A stretch of DNA of 35,368 nucleotides, taken from a virus. Numbering within the stretch: the stretch's first letter is position 1; every line of letters begins with the position of its first letter. Shown in pieces: positions 16,219 through 24,076 of this stretch. The notes below the pieces were generated by a model. The model was given only the letters and a program-made list of their open reading frames with translations, searched no databases and was not told the origin of the DNA. A program made the position numbers and the translations under genes. Where the stretch lies: positions 1 through 35,368 of IMG/VR virus record IMGVR_UViG_3300035661_000192; one strand, written 5' to 3'.

Positions 16219-16547
16219 TTATCTCTCCTTATTTCTATAAACTTTTCAATGAACCTATCAAGTTTTGCATCAAGCTTTTGTAATTCACCCCGCCAACCGC
16301 TGACATCTCGATAATGTTCTTCTTTAGTGATGAAATCTTTCATCTGATTTTCTATTTCTGCGATTTTGTTGTCAAACTTTGCATCTCTTTCTTCAAGCTT
16401 TGCATCTCTCTCTTTTAGTGCTTTTGTTAAGCTGTCTATTTTTTCTTCTTGTCTTCTAATCAGAAAAAATATAGCTACGATTGTAATAATCGTTGAGATT
16501 TCTGGAGTAATTAATTTCCCTAATCCTATCTCAAGAAAATCCATCAC
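16215..16547 (-). CDS. Membrane-anchored coiled-coil protein (Mu gp25/DUF2730-like)
   Basis: A 110-aa protein with one N-terminal membrane segment (ISTIITIVAIFFLI, about 18-31), then a coiled coil with the repeated ALKERDAKLEERDAKF. This layout matches DUF2730/Mu gp25 proteins, whose role is not established. It overlaps the nuclease gene by four bases. Confidence 0.7.
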   Translation of the reverse strand: MMDFLEIGLGKLITPEISTIITIVAIFFLIRRQEEKIDSLTKALKERDAKLEERDAKFDNKIAEIENQMKDFITKEEHYRDVSGWRGELQKLDAKLDRFIEKFIEIRRDK

Positions 16548-16807
16548 AGAACCTCTAAAAATCTTTGAAGTGGAAGAACAATTAACGGTTCTTGTCTGTC
16601 AGCTTTTATTACAACTGCATCATTGCCTTCAAGCCATTTATAGATAGACAGCTCTTTTCTTGCTTTTACTTGAATGTGTCCGACGAGTTCCACGTGCAAA
16701 TCTGCAGAACCTAAAGAACCTGCAGACCTGACAACTTTTAAGCCTCTTTCTTCAAAGATTTTTTTTATCTCTCTTTCTACTCTGCTACCTTTTCTTTTTG
16801 CGTTCAT
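16544..16807 (-). CDS. Hjc-like Holliday junction resolvase/PD-(D/E)XK nuclease
   Basis: An 87-aa protein starting at the ATG at 16807 (MNAKRKGSRVEREIKKIFEERGLKVVRSAGSLGSADLHV...IQVKAR). It has the archaeal Hjc pattern KGSxxERE (E11), VVRSAGS (S31), AD (D36) and a QVK motif (Q46, K48), where Hjc usually has ExK. A longer TTG-started reading would add 20 residues but runs into the promoter, so I reject it. It would cut branched DNA, perhaps to clear branches before packaging. Confidence 0.8.
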   Translation of the reverse strand: MNAKRKGSRVEREIKKIFEERGLKVVRSAGSLGSADLHVELVGHIQVKARKELSIYKWLEGNDAVVIKADRQEPLIVLPLQRFLEVL

Positions 16808-16838
16808 AATAAGACCTTGAAATTGTGATTGTGATTTT

Positions 16839-16880
16839 ATGATAAAGAGATGGAACTGATTAAACAAGCACAGATTTCAC
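16839..16880 (-). promoter_or_regulatory. Late-type promoter before the packaging operon (copy D)
   Basis: The box GTGAAATCTGTGCTTGTTT runs from 16880 to 16862 on the minus strand, followed after 17 bp by TATCAT (16844-16839) as -10. The ATG of the resolvase gene is about 30 bases further on. It lies between the HTH gene and the packaging genes. Confidence 0.78.
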
Positions 16881-17311: not shown

Positions 17312-18403
17312 CTAAATTGTCATTGGCATTACTACTGCTAAATATTTTTCTTCTGGATTTTCCGGAATAATAACGGTTTGAGTATCTTTGTTTATAAATT
17401 TTACGACTATCTTTTCATCTTCTACTTTATCTATAGCTTCTAAAATATACTTTCCATTAAATCCAATCTCAAACTCTTGCCCGTTATAATTAGTATCTAT
17501 CTCATCTTCTGCGTAAGCATCTGTAGAAATTCTTGACGCTGTTGATATGGTTAGCTTGTTATTAAACAGTTGTATTCTTATAGGCTTATTTTCGTCTTCT
17601 TCTGCTATAGTAATTCTCTTTATAGAGTTTATTAACTCTTCCTTAGATAAGACTATTTCAATGTTAAAGCTATTTGGGATAACTTGAGTATAGTCTGGGA
17701 AAACGCCTTCAAGTAATCTTGCAGATAAAATGTAATTTGAGCCTTTAAAGAATATACTACTTCCGGAAACTGCCACTTCTACATCTTCAACATCACTTAC
17801 AAGTTTTTTAATCTCATTTAACGCTTTCATAGGGACTATATACTTGCCTTTAAGCTCACTATTGATTTGTATGTTGTACAAAGCAAGCCTATGACCATCG
17901 GTTGCTACAAAATCAAGCTTTCCTTTAATAAATGAAAAACAAACACCATTTAAAGCAAATCTACTTTCATCCTTTGAAACAGCATAAATCGTTTTAGATA
18001 TTCCTTTTAAAAGTTCTTTACCACTTATTGATACTGCTAAATCAGATGGAAAGGCTTCAGGCAATGGAAAATCGTCAGCTTCAAAAGTTGGTAGGTTATA
18101 CTTTGTTTTTCCTGATGTGATTTTTAAAGTTTCTCCATCTGTATAAAGCAAGGCTTCATTTTGAGCTAAAACTTTTGATATATCTGAAATCTTTTTTGAG
18201 TTTACACAAATAGAACCTTCTTCTTCAACATCTGCAGGTATAGTATATGAAGTATACACTTCCAAGTCTGTTCCATAAACTGTTAGTTTTCCATCTTCAG
18301 CTTTTAATAAGAAATTTGTCAAAATAGGAAGTGCTGCTTTCTTTTCCGATATGACTTTCTTAAACGCTTCCTGCAAGTCTTTTTTGTAGGCAAAGAATCT
18401 CAT
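17312..18403 (-). CDS. dnaN: DNA polymerase III sliding clamp (beta subunit)
   Basis: A full-length 363-aa beta clamp with three clamp domains. Recognisable marks are KAALPILTNFLLKAEDGKLTVYGTDLE near the start, FVATDGHRLALY in the second domain, YILSARLLEGVFPDY, and the C-terminal YLAVVMPMTI that forms the partner-binding pocket. It tethers polymerase to DNA. Its ATG overlaps the stop of the ATPase gene (ATGA), so it is truly part of the phage early operon. A beta clamp is unusual cargo for a Mu-type phage and should serve replicative transposition. Confidence 0.95.
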   Translation of the reverse strand: MRFFAYKKDLQEAFKKVISEKKAALPILTNFLLKAEDGKLTVYGTDLEVYTSYTIPADVEEEGSICVNSKKISDISKVLAQNEALLYTDGETLKITSGKTKYNLPTFEADDFPLPEAFPSDLAVSISGKELLKGISKTIYAVSKDESRFALNGVCFSFIKGKLDFVATDGHRLALYNIQINSELKGKYIVPMKALNEIKKLVSDVEDVEVAVSGSSIFFKGSNYILSARLLEGVFPDYTQVIPNSFNIEIVLSKEELINSIKRITIAEEDENKPIRIQLFNNKLTISTASRISTDAYAEDEIDTNYNGQEFEIGFNGKYILEAIDKVEDEKIVVKFINKDTQTVIIPENPEEKYLAVVMPMTI

Positions 18404-19062
18404 TTGTTAATACCTCCTTTTGTTTTTTCTAATCTTAAATCTTTTTTGCTTTCAATCTTTACATACTCACAATAGCTTCTTAATCTTGATAGTAGTGGCT
18501 CTGGAAATTGTTGAAAGCTTTCTTTACTGTTTGTTGTTATAAACAGCGGAATATTCTTGCTCTCAGCATAATAAATAACTTGTGTAATCAAATCAACTTT
18601 TATATCCTTTAGATTTGGCAGTAAATCATCAATCAAGTATGCATCATATTCTTGAAATGTTTCAAACGCTTTTGTGTCAAATAGAACTGTGCTAATATAT
18701 AGTGGGTTGTTTATTTTCCACCAATACAAAAGCTTTGCTATTTTCCAAGTGCAGGCTGTGGACTTCCCCACGCCTGCCATTCCTTCCATTATTACGCTTC
18801 TTTTAATTTCTTTTATTTTTTTAATGCTTTCGGTTTCTTTTACCTGAAAAATTGCAGTTTCTATTAGCTTCTCTGGAAATTTACCGCTTATTAAGATGTC
18901 TTTTATATGTTCTTTCGTTCTTGGCTTTAAATATCTTTTTACATTTGATATTGTGTATTTTTGATATCCATCTGGATAAACCCAAAAACCACTATCATCT
19001 TCTATTATATGAGCGTTTGGAAAATCCTTTTTAATGCTTTCTATACTTTTGTATATTCTCAT
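18400..19062 (-). CDS. DnaC/DnaI-like AAA+ ATPase (putative helicase loader)
   Basis: A 220-aa protein. The ATPase core starts near residue 85 with Walker A EGMAGVGKST (93-102), then Walker B AYLIDDL (141-147), sensor 1 PLFITTNS (172-179) and an arginine motif LLSRLRSYCEYVKI. This order and the TTN sensor are typical of DnaC/IstB-type loaders. The N-terminal 80 residues are unlike known DnaC partners. It lies directly before dnaN, which supports a role in loading a helicase at transposition-made forks. Confidence 0.75.
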   Translation of the reverse strand: MRIYKSIESIKKDFPNAHIIEDDSGFWVYPDGYQKYTISNVKRYLKPRTKEHIKDILISGKFPEKLIETAIFQVKETESIKKIKEIKRSVIMEGMAGVGKSTACTWKIAKLLYWWKINNPLYISTVLFDTKAFETFQEYDAYLIDDLLPNLKDIKVDLITQVIYYAESKNIPLFITTNSKESFQQFPEPLLSRLRSYCEYVKIESKKDLRLEKTKGGINK

Positions 19063-19071
19063 GGCTCACTC

Positions 19072-19572
19072 CTAAAATGGGATATCTTCGTCATCATCTT
19101 CTTTAGCCCAATTCTTGAGATAATAATCCTTTCCTCTCCTGTTTTCTGGACTTGTCCATTCCTTGCTGCCTGATTTGCCTTTTATATTTGGCAGCTGATT
19201 TCTGAAGTTTAGTAGTCCATTCCAATCTTTTCTTGATTTTTTAAAGTTCTCATAGTCTTTCTTTAGTTGTTCTATGCTTTCGTTGTTTCTTTTGTAGATA
19301 TGTATCAACTCTCTTAAGTGTTTCGCTATTATTGCTTTATACTCTGTCGCAAATCTAAACATTTCAGGTGGCTTTTCATCCCATAGCTGTAAATACCAGC
19401 CAATGAGATGTTGAATTTCTCTTCCGTCTTCTTTCCTGCTTTCTTCTTTTTCTATCTCCTCTTTAAGTCTGGTTCTTATCTCAAACAGAATATTAACAGT
19501 ATCTTGAATTTTACCATCAACTAAAGACTTTAATGCTTTTTCTACCTTTTTTAACATCTGTTTGTTATTCAT
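19072..19572 (-). CDS. Helical protein with SSB-like C-terminal tip
   Basis: A 166-aa protein, mostly charged helices (WYLQLWDEKPPEMFRFATEYKAIIAKHLRELIHIY...), then a flexible Gly/Ser/Lys stretch (PNIKGKSGSKEWTSPENRRG) ending in EDDDEDIPF. That last motif is the same kind as the C-terminal tip of bacterial SSB (DDDIPF), which recruits PriA, RecO, RecQ and other partners. No OB fold is seen. It lies between a zinc-finger protein and the DnaC-like ATPase, so it may link host repair or restart proteins to the phage fork. Function is inferred. Confidence 0.65.
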   Translation of the reverse strand: MNNKQMLKKVEKALKSLVDGKIQDTVNILFEIRTRLKEEIEKEESRKEDGREIQHLIGWYLQLWDEKPPEMFRFATEYKAIIAKHLRELIHIYKRNNESIEQLKKDYENFKKSRKDWNGLLNFRNQLPNIKGKSGSKEWTSPENRRGKDYYLKNWAKEDDDEDIPF

Positions 19573-20084
19573 AATACGCCTCCCATCTTTTTCATATGTT
19601 TATACTTACTCTTAATGCTTTCTGGGTGTCTTCCAAGTTTTCTTGAAAGCTCCTGCAAAATTGCAGTAGTTAATCCGTTCCTTGAGATTGCATCTAATAT
19701 TAGTTTTTCCTCTTCTTTAGAGTATCTTCTTTTTACTGCCATTCCTTTTTGTCTTCTTTTTTGTTCTAAATACTTTCTTCTGTATTCTTTTTCGCATTCT
19801 TCACTGCAATATTGGTCTGTATCTTGGACGGGAATAAATCTACTCCCGCATAACTCGCAAGTTCTTTTGATAGTCTCTACATCTTGACCTGGCAATCCAA
19901 AGACTGGTGGGTTATCGCTGTATATTTCCAATATTCCATTTTTAACTTGTGATGTTATAAGGCTTCTGATTTTTTCTTTATAGATATTCTTTAAATAACT
20001 TGGTGCTTTTAACTCTTTTAGCACCATCCAAGGTGTGAAAATTTTCAGTTTTAACATCACTTGCCAGATTTGTCCTTCTGTCAT
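19569..20084 (-). CDS. Zinc-finger and Myb/HTH-like DNA-binding protein
   Basis: A 171-aa protein in three parts. Residues 1-65 look like a winged-helix region (FTPWMVLKELKAPSYLKNIYKEKIRSLITSQVKNGILEIY). Residues 74-110 hold a CELC...CSEEC zinc finger (C76, C79, C93, C97). Residues 118-165 are Myb/SANT-like (RYSKEEEKLILDAI...LSRKLGRHPESIKSKYKHM). It probably binds DNA. It lies in the early operon right after the MuB-like gene, overlapping the next gene by four bases. A dispersed palindrome encodes TAILQ within the Myb-like part. Confidence 0.7.
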   Translation of the reverse strand: MTEGQIWQVMLKLKIFTPWMVLKELKAPSYLKNIYKEKIRSLITSQVKNGILEIYSDNPPVFGLPGQDVETIKRTCELCGSRFIPVQDTDQYCSEECEKEYRRKYLEQKRRQKGMAVKRRYSKEEEKLILDAISRNGLTTAILQELSRKLGRHPESIKSKYKHMKKMGGVL

Positions 20085-20086
20085 GC

Positions 20087-20776
20087 TTACCTCCCTAATG
20101 CTACTGCTATTTTTTCTACGATGTCTTTCTTAGCTGGCTGTTTTGCTTGTCTGCAAGTTTGCAGTATAAAAGCAACATCGATAGTAGTCCAGCCTTTTCT
20201 TTTTGCCATCTCAAACATTTCTTTCGCATCTGCTTCTACTTTTAGCTCTTTTGCCAAGGTGTCTATTGTTTTCTCTGTGATTGGCTGAAGTTCTCTCGTT
20301 ATAACTATTCTTTTATGAATACTATGTGGATGTGTTGCTAATATTTTTGGTATTGTATGGTCTCCCAGAAAGAGATAAGAAAAGTTTAGTTCCAAGTCTT
20401 CAGACAAGTCTTTTAATTCGTTTAAAATGTGATATTTTGAAAGTATTCTTTGACTTTCATCCAGTATGAATGTTGGCTTTAACTTTAAGTAATCTAAGTG
20501 ATATTTAATCATGTTTAAAGTGCCTTCCCAAGTGTGTCTTACTCCAGAACGTAAAGCCAAGCCGATAAGTCTATAAAGTCTTCCTTTAGATATTTCCCCG
20601 TCTGGGACTTTTATATAGAAAACATCGTCAAATCGTTGTATAATTTTCTGTGATGAAAATGTCTTACCAGTCCCCCATGAACCATACAAAATGGCGTGGA
20701 CTGGGCTTTTTTGCTCTTCTCTAATCTTTTTCAATGCTGAGATAGTGTTGATAATTGTTTCTTCTGTATGTATCAT
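20087..20776 (-). CDS. MuB-like AAA+ transposition ATPase
   Basis: A 229-aa protein that should bind target DNA and activate the transposase. Walker A is YGSWGTGKT (31-39) and Walker B TFILDESQ (102-109), followed by LFLGDHTIPKIL and a C-terminal HTH-like stretch. I chose the ATG at 20776; a GGAGG site sits just before it, and a longer TTG start would put that site inside the gene. It follows the transposase gene by one base, the A-B order of Mu. Confidence 0.88.
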   Translation of the reverse strand: MIHTEETIINTISALKKIREEQKSPVHAILYGSWGTGKTFSSQKIIQRFDDVFYIKVPDGEISKGRLYRLIGLALRSGVRHTWEGTLNMIKYHLDYLKLKPTFILDESQRILSKYHILNELKDLSEDLELNFSYLFLGDHTIPKILATHPHSIHKRIVITRELQPITEKTIDTLAKELKVEADAKEMFEMAKRKGWTTIDVAFILQTCRQAKQPAKKDIVEKIAVALGR

Positions 20777-20777
20777 T

Positions 20778-22223
20778 TTAATTACCTCCAAATAATTTTA
20801 AGATGTCAATTTCTTCTTGCTTTGTTTCTTCTTGTTTTACTTCTTCTGTTGATGCTTGTAAAATACTTGTTATGTCCAAAATCTCATCTTTTCTTTCTTC
20901 TTTTAGCTCTTCTTGTCTTATTTTTTCAAGTTCTTCTGTTAATTTAACTTTTCTTCTTCCTAATCTTTTTTCTTTGTTTCTTATTTCTTTTAGTTCTTTT
21001 GTGTCTAAAGTTGGAGTGTTTTTAGACACAAGTTCAGCATATCCAAGCTTTCTTTTCTCTTCTTTGTCCCATACTTCTAATCGTGTCAGATTTTCCAAAT
21101 CACGATAGCAGACTACCTCAGGAGCTTTGCTTTTTCTTCCATATTCTCCAAAACGCTGCTCCTGAGGGTAATAAAATTCATAAACAAGATTTCCAATTGT
21201 TATAGAATTATTCCTAACTGTTCTGATGAATTTTTCTCTGAATGCAAGTCTAATTTCATCAATATCAGCTTGTCTATATGTTTGTCTTATAGCAGAATGC
21301 AGGACTTCAGGAACGACAGGTTCGTTGAAGTGTTCGAACCTGTGTTCCGTTCTATTGTATGTTTCTATGGATACCCTCAGAGCTTCTTCAAAAGATTGAT
21401 GAGTAGTAATATAATATCGAAGCATACCTTTCAAATCACGAAAACTTCTTTCTATAAGCTTTTGGTTCGGTCTTCCGGCAGTGGTGTTGCGATATTTTAT
21501 CCCAAGTTTTTCCAATCCATTTATTATCAAATCTGTCTTAAGTATGGCTTCGTTATCGCAGATAATTTTATCTGGCAAGCCATACTTCTCAAATAAACTC
21601 ATCAGATATAAAGCAATATCAATCGTGCTAAATGCTCTGTTGTAATATTGAACGTTGGTGTCTTCCTTTACTTCTTTATGGAAGACACCTAAGAAGCAAC
21701 CTGACCAACGCTCACGGCAGATAAACACATGGTAGTGTTTTCCACCGTAGCTATAACCAGTAGCATCTATTTCCCATTCTCTTTGATTTCTTGATAGCTT
21801 ACCCTTGCTTACTATATGCTTAGACATTTCTTTTTTGTCCAAGCGTTTTCTTTGTAGTTTTTCGTATGACCCAAATTCTTCTTTTATAAAGCCTTTTATA
21901 AATCGGTACCAACTCGGTTTAGAGTTTATCCCTATCATTTTTAACTCCAATTCAAGCAGTTTATAAATCTGACTAAGAGAAAGGGTTCTTGTTTTCCCTT
22001 TCTCTTTATTGCCCAATAACAACAAGTTTTTTATTCTCTGTTTCAGATCGTCTGGTATTTCTGTTTTTTTCTCTTTCTCTTTTTGTAGCTTTAATTCTGC
22101 GTCCACCCACCTTTTGATTGTGGTGAAGTGGACTTTTTCTTTTAAAATTTGGTGTATTTGTCTTAAAGAATAGCCTTGGAGATAATACTCCAAAGCCATT
22201 TTCTTTAGCTTTCCCCTATCCAT
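20778..22223 (-). CDS. Mu-type DDE transposase (MuA-like)
   Basis: A 481-aa transposase that cuts and joins the phage ends. The N-terminus has two HTH-like segments (about 16-40 and 80-120). The integrase-fold core carries D153 (EWEIDATG), D223 (IICDNEA) and E259 (NQKLIERSFRDLKG). A beta-barrel region (340-400) and a Glu/Lys-rich tail end with TKQEEIDILKLFGGN, probably the contact for the B protein. It is shorter than MuA (about 660 aa), mainly in the DNA-binding N-terminus, so end recognition must differ from Mu. Confidence 0.92.
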   Translation of the reverse strand: MDRGKLKKMALEYYLQGYSLRQIHQILKEKVHFTTIKRWVDAELKLQKEKEKKTEIPDDLKQRIKNLLLLGNKEKGKTRTLSLSQIYKLLELELKMIGINSKPSWYRFIKGFIKEEFGSYEKLQRKRLDKKEMSKHIVSKGKLSRNQREWEIDATGYSYGGKHYHVFICRERWSGCFLGVFHKEVKEDTNVQYYNRAFSTIDIALYLMSLFEKYGLPDKIICDNEAILKTDLIINGLEKLGIKYRNTTAGRPNQKLIERSFRDLKGMLRYYITTHQSFEEALRVSIETYNRTEHRFEHFNEPVVPEVLHSAIRQTYRQADIDEIRLAFREKFIRTVRNNSITIGNLVYEFYYPQEQRFGEYGRKSKAPEVVCYRDLENLTRLEVWDKEEKRKLGYAELVSKNTPTLDTKELKEIRNKEKRLGRRKVKLTEELEKIRQEELKEERKDEILDITSILQASTEEVKQEETKQEEIDILKLFGGN

Positions 22224-22225
22224 AG

Positions 22226-23176
22226 CTAACCTCTTTTAGCAGATTTTGATAGTTCTTTTATCTCCTCTAATGCTTCTTCAAACATTGACAGAGCTTTATC
22301 CCAGCCAATTTTTACAACCATTTTTTCCATATAATAAATCAATTCATTTTTCAACCTTTCATACTCTTCTTTTTCTGTTAGTGGTGGCGGGTCGTTTGGT
22401 GGTCTTCCACCATAAGATTTTTTTCTTTCTTCTTCAAGAAATTTTTGTTGTGTATATTCAGATGCTTGTTTAGATATCTCTGGATTATTTGCAATTTTCA
22501 TAAGCTTTTCGTAAGAGATTTCGTCTTCTTCCTCTTCTATATCATCATAAAAATCTGGTTCTTCTTCTGAGGGGGTTTCGTCGGAATCTGCAATTTTTGC
22601 AGGTTGCGACATTTCTCTTTCCCAATCCGAAATTGTGTTTCGAGCTATTCCCAACTCTCTCGCTACTTCTTCCTGTGTATATCCTTGCTTTCTCATTTCT
22701 AACGCCTTTTCTTTCAATTCTTCTGGCTTTTCTCTTCTTTTTAGTCCATTAGTCCAGTAGTAAATAGTTCTCTCACTTACTCCAAATATTTTTTGAAGTT
22801 CTGGGATTTCTACTCCTTCCATATAAAGGTTCTGGCATAAAATCCTTTTTTCTTCTTTTGTCAGTGGTAATCCGTGCCTATTTTTTGTGATTGCTAAAAC
22901 TTTTGCCTCAAGCATATCCTTTAACTCTACCACTTCAGCTTTTATCGTTGTTCTGCCAAGTTTTTTTGATGCCATAAGGCGATGCATTCCATCAATTAAC
23001 CAATATTCATCGCCTTTTTGCCATACGGTGATTGGTGGAAATTCAGAGCCAAGCTCCATAGCTTCTCTGTATTCTTCTACTTTGTCCTCTACTGTATGGG
23101 TTTCTACTCTTGGAAGTAATCCTTGTATAATTTCAATTTTACTAACTGGGACTTCTTTAATGCCTAATATTTTCAT
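22226..23176 (-). CDS. ParB-like nuclease-fold protein with two HTH motifs
   Basis: A 316-aa protein. The ParB N-terminal domain is clear (VPVSKIEIIQGLLPRVETH, then WLIDGMHRLMASKKLG at 59-74). HTH motifs follow at 122-146 and 160-187. Residues 190-200 (SQPAKIADSDE) are encoded by palindrome Z2, and a long acidic stretch follows. It lies between a small gene and the transposase. It could bind specific palindromes or act as a regulator, but no ParA gene is present. A helical C-terminal region ends at SAKRG. Confidence 0.82.
   Translation of the reverse strand: MKILGIKEVPVSKIEIIQGLLPRVETHTVEDKVEEYREAMELGSEFPPITVWQKGDEYWLIDGMHRLMASKKLGRTTIKAEVVELKDMLEAKVLAITKNRHGLPLTKEEKRILCQNLYMEGVEIPELQKIFGVSERTIYYWTNGLKRREKPEELKEKALEMRKQGYTQEEVARELGIARNTISDWEREMSQPAKIADSDETPSEEEPDFYDDIEEEEDEISYEKLMKIANNPEISKQASEYTQQKFLEEERKKSYGGRPPNDPPPLTEKEEYERLKNELIYYMEKMVVKIGWDKALSMFEEALEEIKELSKSAKRG
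22580..22612. repeat. Palindromic element Z, copy 2, inside the ParB-like gene
   Basis: GTCGG...GCGAC arms around CTGCAATTTTTGCAGG. It is identical over about 40 bases to copy 3 at 25252-25291. It is read in frame as part of the ParB-like protein, in the linker after the second HTH. Confidence 0.85.
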
Positions 23177-23180
23177 GGCT

Positions 23181-23306
23181 TTATACCCCCTTTAAGTATT
23201 TTTCTAAATCCATGACAACATATTCCCCTGTACTTAAGTTTAACGCTACAACCTCAATAACTCTTCCATTTTTATATTGCATGTTTTCAAATATTTGTGC
23301 AATCAT
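23181..23306 (-). CDS. Small protein between RecT and ParB-like genes (41 aa)
   Basis: A 41-aa reading frame (MIAQIFENMQYKNGRVIEVVALNLSTGEYVVMDLEKYLKGV). Its ATG overlaps the RecT stop (ATGA), which favours translational coupling. It looks like two or three beta strands and a short helix. The function is unknown. Confidence 0.6.
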   Translation of the reverse strand: MIAQIFENMQYKNGRVIEVVALNLSTGEYVVMDLEKYLKGV

Positions 23307-24076
23307 TCTTCATTACCTCCTTCTTTAGAGATTTCTATTAATTCTTTTGTAATTTTTTCTATAATCTCTTCATAGTCTTTTTTAAATATATCTTTTGTAT
23401 GTTCTAATCCATACTCAGCTAATACACTTCTGATAATAGTTTCCACAACTTCAGAAGAAAGCCCGTGTTCTCTTGCTGTATTATTCGCAATAGCCCAAAG
23501 TCTTCTTTTTTGGGCTTCTGAGATTTTATCTTCTTTGTCTTCTATAGATGTTTCTTTTGGTAATTCTTTTACTGGTTCATTAATAGCTGGTTCCGACATA
23601 ACCTCTGCTTCTTCGTATGGCAGTGATGCTGTTTCCTCTGGAAATGCCAAGCGGAAAGCCTGTGCTATGGCTGTCTTTTTAAGCATAAATATTGGCATGC
23701 TTTTCCAACTCGGAGTATCTTTTTTAGCTTCATTAAGATATACACGCCATTTCAAAGGATATTGCCAATCCTTTCTATAGATTGTAGTTTCTGCATATGT
23801 GTCAATCTCATCTTTGCCAACTACTACATCCCAGCCGTTTAGCCTATTGCTCTTTTCAGCTCTTTTGATATATTCTGTATAGCTGACAACTAACTGTATG
23901 CTACCCTTGTATGGGATAAAGTGGCATTCTTTTTTTGTTGGGTCTAATCCAATGTGTCTTGCTAATGCTATTGCTTTCTTGATTTCAGCATCATTGACAC
24001 TTTGCAAGTGTGGAAATAAAACCTTTACCATTTCTACAATGTTGCCTTCTGTTGTTTTTACTACTGCTGTTGTCAT
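23303..24076 (-). CDS. recT: RecT-family single-strand annealing protein
   Basis: A 257-aa recombinase that anneals single strands. The RecT pattern is clear: KALFPHLQSVNDAEI-type start, ALARHIGLDPTKKECHFIPYKGSIQLVVSYTEYIKRAEKS, and WKSMPIFMLKKTAIAQAFRLAFPEE. A variable acidic C-terminal part follows. No exonuclease partner (RecE/Exo) is seen next to it. It has a strong AAGGAGG site. Confidence 0.88.
   Translation of the reverse strand: MTTAVVKTTEGNIVEMVKVLFPHLQSVNDAEIKKAIALARHIGLDPTKKECHFIPYKGSIQLVVSYTEYIKRAEKSNRLNGWDVVVGKDEIDTYAETTIYRKDWQYPLKWRVYLNEAKKDTPSWKSMPIFMLKKTAIAQAFRLAFPEETASLPYEEAEVMSEPAINEPVKELPKETSIEDKEDKISEAQKRRLWAIANNTAREHGLSSEVVETIIRSVLAEYGLEHTKDIFKKDYEEIIEKITKELIEISKEGGNEE

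Follow-up and report, generated by a model that had tools for sequence, protein, structure and literature searches.

A conserved SSB-type C-terminal tip on a helical protein encoded between the transposition and helicase-loader genes of a transposable phage

A small protein in the replication-transposition module of a transposable-phage record, unrelated to bacterial SSB, ends in an SSB-type C-terminal tip. The presence of this tip on an unrelated replication-module protein is real, conserved and unusual, and our confidence in the mechanism that we propose for it is moderate. The record, called the window here, is a 35,368-base virus record from IMG/VR. SSB tips are regarded as a property of SSBs. 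A conserved tip on an unrelated protein in a transposition-replication operon implies that access to the SSB hub (in E. coli, SSB recruits about 17 partner proteins; PMC10018359) can be transplanted.

The open reading frame of the tip protein starts with ATG and the C-terminus of its product reads ...NWAKEDDDEDIPF, the last nine residues being EDDDEDIPF (Table 1). A preliminary description of this DNA had proposed a helical body that is not an OB fold, and structure prediction, which it had named as a check, bears this out. An AlphaFold2 model built with 32 homologues has an all-helical body (mean pLDDT 77, pTM 0.54) and, because it contains no strands, no OB fold; the final nine residues are disordered (pLDDT < 50). 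Likewise, no match to the bacterial SSB family (PF00436, an OB-fold domain) was found with Pfam. The same description placed the tip after a flexible linker; the tip itself stands, but the linker is interrupted by the conserved W.SPEN.RG.DYYL motif. The body has conserved stretches of its own (HLxGWYLxLW..PPE, IIgKHLkEL..IY, DYe.FK and G...FR..LP.iK) and carries a net positive charge of about +2 to +13, whereas the tail is negative.

Sequence searches of Pfam, PHROGs, NCBIfam and the PDB returned no credible family for the tip protein. Weak Pfam/PHROG matches to DUF6987, MCM6_C, Pbs27 and phrog_6802 were discarded as noise from helical composition, and a tblastn match to the uncultured phage LR756502 was discarded as insignificant (E 0.7). 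A fold search with the model gave nothing in the PDB and short-helix matches only in BFVD, and no known primosome adaptor matches the protein in sequence or fold.

Table 1. Coordinates in the window of the tip protein, its parts and the surrounding genes.
Feature	Position	Strand	Remarks
Tip protein	19072..19572	-	166 aa: helical body, W.SPEN.RG.DYYL motif, C-terminal SSB-like tip
Helical body of tip protein	19171..19572	-	residues 1-134
W-x-S-P-E-N-x-R-G-x-D-Y-Y-L motif	19117..19158	-	residues 139-152, conserved, immediately N-terminal of tip
SSB-like tip EDDDEDIPF	19075..19101	-	residues 158-166, predicted disordered; codon changes in close relatives mostly synonymous
DnaC-like helicase loader ATPase	18400..19062	-	Walker A GMAGVGKS, Walker B LIDDL, SRLRS
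DnaN beta sliding clamp, phage-encoded	17312..18403	-	confined to the window and L009, the relative closest to it
Putative DNA-binding protein (Zn/Myb protein)	19569..20084	-	treble-clef/NinG-like zinc motif and Myb-like HTH
MuB-like AAA ATPase	20087..20791	-	
MuA-like transposase (phrog_310)	20778..22223	-	
ParB-like/HTH protein	22226..23176	-	
RecT/Bet-like annealing protein	23303..24076	-	no SSB tip on the window copy

Relatives were gathered by scanning viral contigs, genome contigs and whole genomes, which gave over 40 loci. Within contig reach, the order ParB, MuA, MuB, Zn/Myb protein, tip protein, DnaC-like loader is kept in 44 of 44 loci, a set that includes some near-duplicates. In the loci compared, the Zn/Myb gene is always immediately upstream of the tip-protein gene; downstream, within contig reach, the DnaC-like gene follows in 44 loci either directly or past one small gene, an extra gene that can precede the loader in one clade. 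The window's loader gene begins 9 bases past the stop codon of the tip protein, and the best PDB profile matches of its product are DnaC (3ecc/3ec2) and a helicase loader (2w58). Repressors are also encoded in the window, and a candidate Hjc/RusA-like Holliday junction resolvase lies close to the replication genes (16544-16867). The neighbouring beta clamp was considered as a cause of the acidic tail and discarded, since the tip is distributed far more widely than DnaN. Seven of the eight cellular genomes with a tip-protein gene belong to Aquificota (those of L045, L046 and L047, together with G036, G045, G047 and G054, which are of the same family as G003, the genome of L046); the eighth is a MAG labelled Bathyarchaeota (L044), possibly misbinned.

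A tip not kept among homologues was one of two points on which the preliminary description had been prepared to give up its reading, and this point does not count against it. The tip or a recognisable variant of it is present in most members of the family, and it is canonical in both deep branches. Unambiguous SSB-type ends (a terminal aromatic residue with its carboxylate free, Pro before it and acidic residues upstream) occur in the window, L009-L013, L032, L034 and L047, and near-canonical ends in L053 (DIPY) and L055 (DIPL). Variant ends (DVPNF, DVPHF, DIPHF, DITL, DDNFSW, DDHFSW, DDEIPWL, DDEIPWLSK, DDEEISWLSK and DNEIPFA) include those of the L014 and L017 clades; in one large clade Pro is changed to Ser (DDNFSW/DDHFSW) or residues are added beyond the aromatic (DDEIPWL(SK)/DNEIPFA). 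When the tail is left out of the tree, SSB-type tips lie on both sides of the midpoint root, and therefore the tip either dates far back in the family or was regained; the tip labels assigned automatically on this tree are coarse, with L044 (EIPFA) tagged ‘none’ and L020 and L025 (IPWL) tagged ‘near’. Across the four closest relatives, two of the nine tip codons are identical, six show synonymous change only and one changes the amino acid (E to D), whereas in a stretch of the linker some 25 residues N-terminal of the tip one codon is identical, none is synonymous-only and eight are changed; this contrast is significant (Fisher p = 0.0014), but that between the tip and the whole body is not (p = 0.12). 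The tip is absent in L045 and in four closely related records (L036 and L038-L040). In these four, a 70-71 aa protein encoded upstream of ParB ends EDEFPF or DEFPF (L038:3488-3703). Its predicted structure is of low confidence (pLDDT 65), and a transfer of the tip to this protein is possible.

The tips of the phage proteins match those of host SSBs, which in the genomes carrying these prophages end DDDVPF, DEDVPF, DDEIPF or EDEIPF. Like the bacterial SSB-Ct, which docks PriA, RecG, RecO, DnaG and others, the end of the tip protein is an acidic run followed by I/V-P-F, is predicted to be disordered and equals Aquificota SSB tips; it differs in being carried by a helical non-OB protein without SSB homology, and in some members W stands for F, S stands for P or extra residues follow. 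Other proteins of these phages and hosts share this kind of end. RecT proteins of relatives end EEDIPF (L034:10360-11439), DDDVPF (L035:10758-11819) and DEDVPF (L041:11192-12271). Genome G054 encodes an Erf-like annealing protein (phrog_10048, with an Erf-like C-terminus; L095:724-1518, G054:C33) that ends SDDDVPF, with a tip-protein homologue about 3 kb upstream on the same contig, and a DnaB-like replicative helicase (L093:1501-2895, G054:C32) that ends TETEDVPF, with a second SSB gene within 3 kb. A search of six host genomes with a strict DNA pattern gave 17 matches, 12 of which lie in ORFs > 100 aa: seven SSBs, two RecTs, the annealer, the DnaB and one unknown. In the wider family group (41 genomes), the other tip matches in real ORFs are nearly all SSBs. 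Viral contigs encode at least 74 distinct proteins (≥ 60 aa) ending DDD[IV]PF; among the 74 listed are 19 with a PF00436 match, two that fit SF2 helicase models (ResIII/Helicase_C) and many that fit PHROG ssDNA-binding families. Such tips mostly mark SSBs of several kinds, yet not SSBs exclusively.

Use of an SSB tail by a phage recombination protein has a precedent in the Sak80alpha annealing protein, which uses the tail of its SSB (PMC11846896); here the phage proteins bear the tip themselves, as in the three RecTs above. No published non-SSB protein with an SSB tip was found in the open-access literature, subscription journals being outside this search. We tentatively suggest, as a possibility that falls clearly short of even, that the SSB tip is a portable module grafted by phages onto many DNA-metabolism proteins (the helical adaptor, RecT, the Erf-like annealer, DnaB and SF2 helicases), which would let an SSB-less phage bring SSB-interacting host enzymes to sites of its choice without relying on SSB-coated DNA.

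For the tip protein itself, the most likely reading, and one that we place close to an even chance, is that it is a phage primosome adaptor that mimics the SSB tip, recruits a host SSB-interacting protein and hands the fork to the phage loader, and that it is a core replication factor of a transposable-phage lineage infecting the heat-loving Aquificota. The predicted body is helical with no detectable OB fold, the gene lies with those of MuA, MuB and a DnaC-like loader, and the tip of the product is conserved and host-like; from these we infer the docking, the partner and the function of the body. The body would belong to a phage pre-primosome and bind DNA, the MuB or Zn/Myb proteins or the DnaC-like loader, and the tip would imitate that of the host SSB and offer a docking site to a host SSB-interacting protein, with PriA as the best guess among several possible partners. 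The strand-transfer fork from transposition would thereby be coupled to loading of the replicative helicase, and host enzymes would be drawn through the tip to the virus's own replication forks.

Several observations argue for this adaptor. The tip is kept while the nearby linker diverges, canonical forms occur to either side of the root when the tree is built from the body alone, the gene order is fixed and the tips equal those of host SSBs; a PF00436 SSB was found neither in the window nor in the records of 26 relatives, many of which are fragments. Tips are also present on RecT, on another annealer and on DnaB of Aquificota phages or prophages. In E. coli, Mu replication requires PriA and DnaT at the step that leads from transposition to loading of the helicase (PMC3325207). 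Searches of the six host genomes found neither DnaT nor PriC (an E. coli control was positive). A tipped helical adaptor encoded between MuB and the loader fits as the missing link. A PriA-like protein is clear in three of the six hosts (G045, G047 and G054), and Aquificota hosts possess DnaC-like proteins of the IstB family. For docking of RecG, the SSB tip is both necessary and sufficient; docking of the E. coli SSB tip involves a hydrophobic pocket, a basic lip that grips the alpha-carboxylate and a basic ridge (PMC10164576). The earlier reading is partly supported: the gene order speaks strongly for a replication setting and the tips are kept and host-like, and capture of PriA, RecO, RecG or similar proteins would be by putative mimicry. 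If the adaptor proposal is true, it supplies a concrete route from strand-transfer to replication forks for those transposable phages that lie outside the E. coli group and whose hosts gave no DnaT or PriC match.

The variant ends bear on the choice of partner. Deletion of the last Phe or change of Pro to Ser weakens docking of the SSB tip, the latter change weakening RecG docking in ssb-113 (PMC10164576), and the Pro-to-Ser and extended tips of this family are predicted from this biochemistry to be weak; in the extended tips residues follow the aromatic, so there is no terminal carboxylate at the site where SSB-tip pockets expect it. Given the weakened or extended tips in one clade and the loss in a few records, the partner may therefore vary. 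We argue that DDNFSW and the extended forms reflect either a partner pocket that has drifted or a partner able to dispense with a free carboxylate.

PriC is a small, helical protein that binds the SSB tip and carries none itself. The tip protein is likewise small and, by gene context, like E. coli DnaT and PriC in standing between transposition and a DnaC-type loader; it differs in that none of the 32 family members scanned against Pfam matched either one (PF17948, PF07445). Lambda O/P and SPP1 gp38/gp39 are phage replisome organisers and loader partners, and the tip protein is, as they are, an early gene beside a helicase loader, with no detectable sequence or fold match to them. The alternative offered in the preliminary description, a replisome organiser, suits the position of the gene beside the helicase loader in the replication module but draws no help from homology, there being no Pfam, PHROG or PDB match to a known replisome organiser or G39P-type loader partner.

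The protein might instead be the phage's own ssDNA-binding protein, with a helical fold other than OB and tipped as other SSBs are. The net basic body, the absence of a detectable PF00436 SSB from the records of these phages and the prior set by the listed viral DDD[IV]PF proteins, with their PF00436 and PHROG ssDNA-binding matches, would suit such a protein. T7 gp2.5, DdrB and ThermoDBP are atypical ssDNA-binding proteins with acidic C-terminal tails, some ending in an aromatic residue. The acidic tail is common to these and to the tip protein, but in the latter an ssDNA-binding fold was not detected: no family or fold evidence points to ssDNA binding in this 166-aa protein with its long helix and zero strands, and its fixed neighbour is a helicase loader, not an annealing protein. 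We regard this reading as unlikely. Rather unlikely, too, is a convergent likeness to SSB in which the acidic-aromatic tail docks on some other protein of the phage (RecT, the Zn/Myb protein or the DnaC-like loader) or, in an autoinhibitory manner, on the protein's own positive body. The persistence across a clade of Ser for Pro and of extensions past the aromatic suggests a partner site looser than the SSB pockets, as such docking would allow, but both deep branches have the exact I/V-P-F/W end, as do unrelated proteins (RecT, an Erf-like annealer and DnaB), and this end equals the host SSB tips. A decoy that fills the SSB-tip pockets of host repair nucleases and helicases, and so shields the phage DNA, is improbable: a soluble tip could compete in trans with the tip-bearing SSBs that these hosts possess, but a decoy would need neither a strongly conserved body nor an immovable place between MuB and the helicase loader in every genome.

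Least of all do we credit chance or a nucleotide-level artefact, such as a sequence constraint imposed by the following gene's start codon or ribosome-binding site, because composition leads one to expect about 0.006 ORFs ending [DE][DE][IVL]P[FW] among 646 distinct ORFs of at least 100 aa from related loci against 12 seen (homologues being counted separately, so that the 12 are non-independent), and because in the window clade the junction varies among relatives and the tip persists, mostly by synonymous change. All 12 belong to the tip-protein family or to RecT. The window's stop codon does abut the ribosome-binding site of the next gene; with the junction varying and the tip kept, the next gene's signals were discarded as the sole cause in the window clade. 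The L017-type clade retains a partial confounder: there the start codon of the following gene shares bases with the tip codons (GATGAAATCCCG read as ATG AAA TCC), and conservation may be partly nucleotide-level. At L017:8494-8528 and L033:8501-8538, this overlap with the start of a small following gene goes with extra C-terminal residues (WLSK).

Together with the adaptor proposal, these data suggest a search rule, in which a short C-terminal tip on non-SSB proteins would lead to phage factors for replication and recombination whose fold is unknown; in the six Aquificota genomes (ORFs > 100 aa), nearly everything that the rule picked out apart from SSBs was a phage-type DNA protein. Two viral proteins with SF2-helicase-like N-termini end DDDIPF (L144:4836-6524 and L167:942-2774), as does a viral family of 73-75 aa that has the stretch GIGEHPQF in common (L126, L135, L141, L165 and L197). 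Among Aquificota proteins, L260 (G067:C7, 186 aa) ends DDEDIPF and L085 (G002:C211, 154 aa) ends DDDEVPF.
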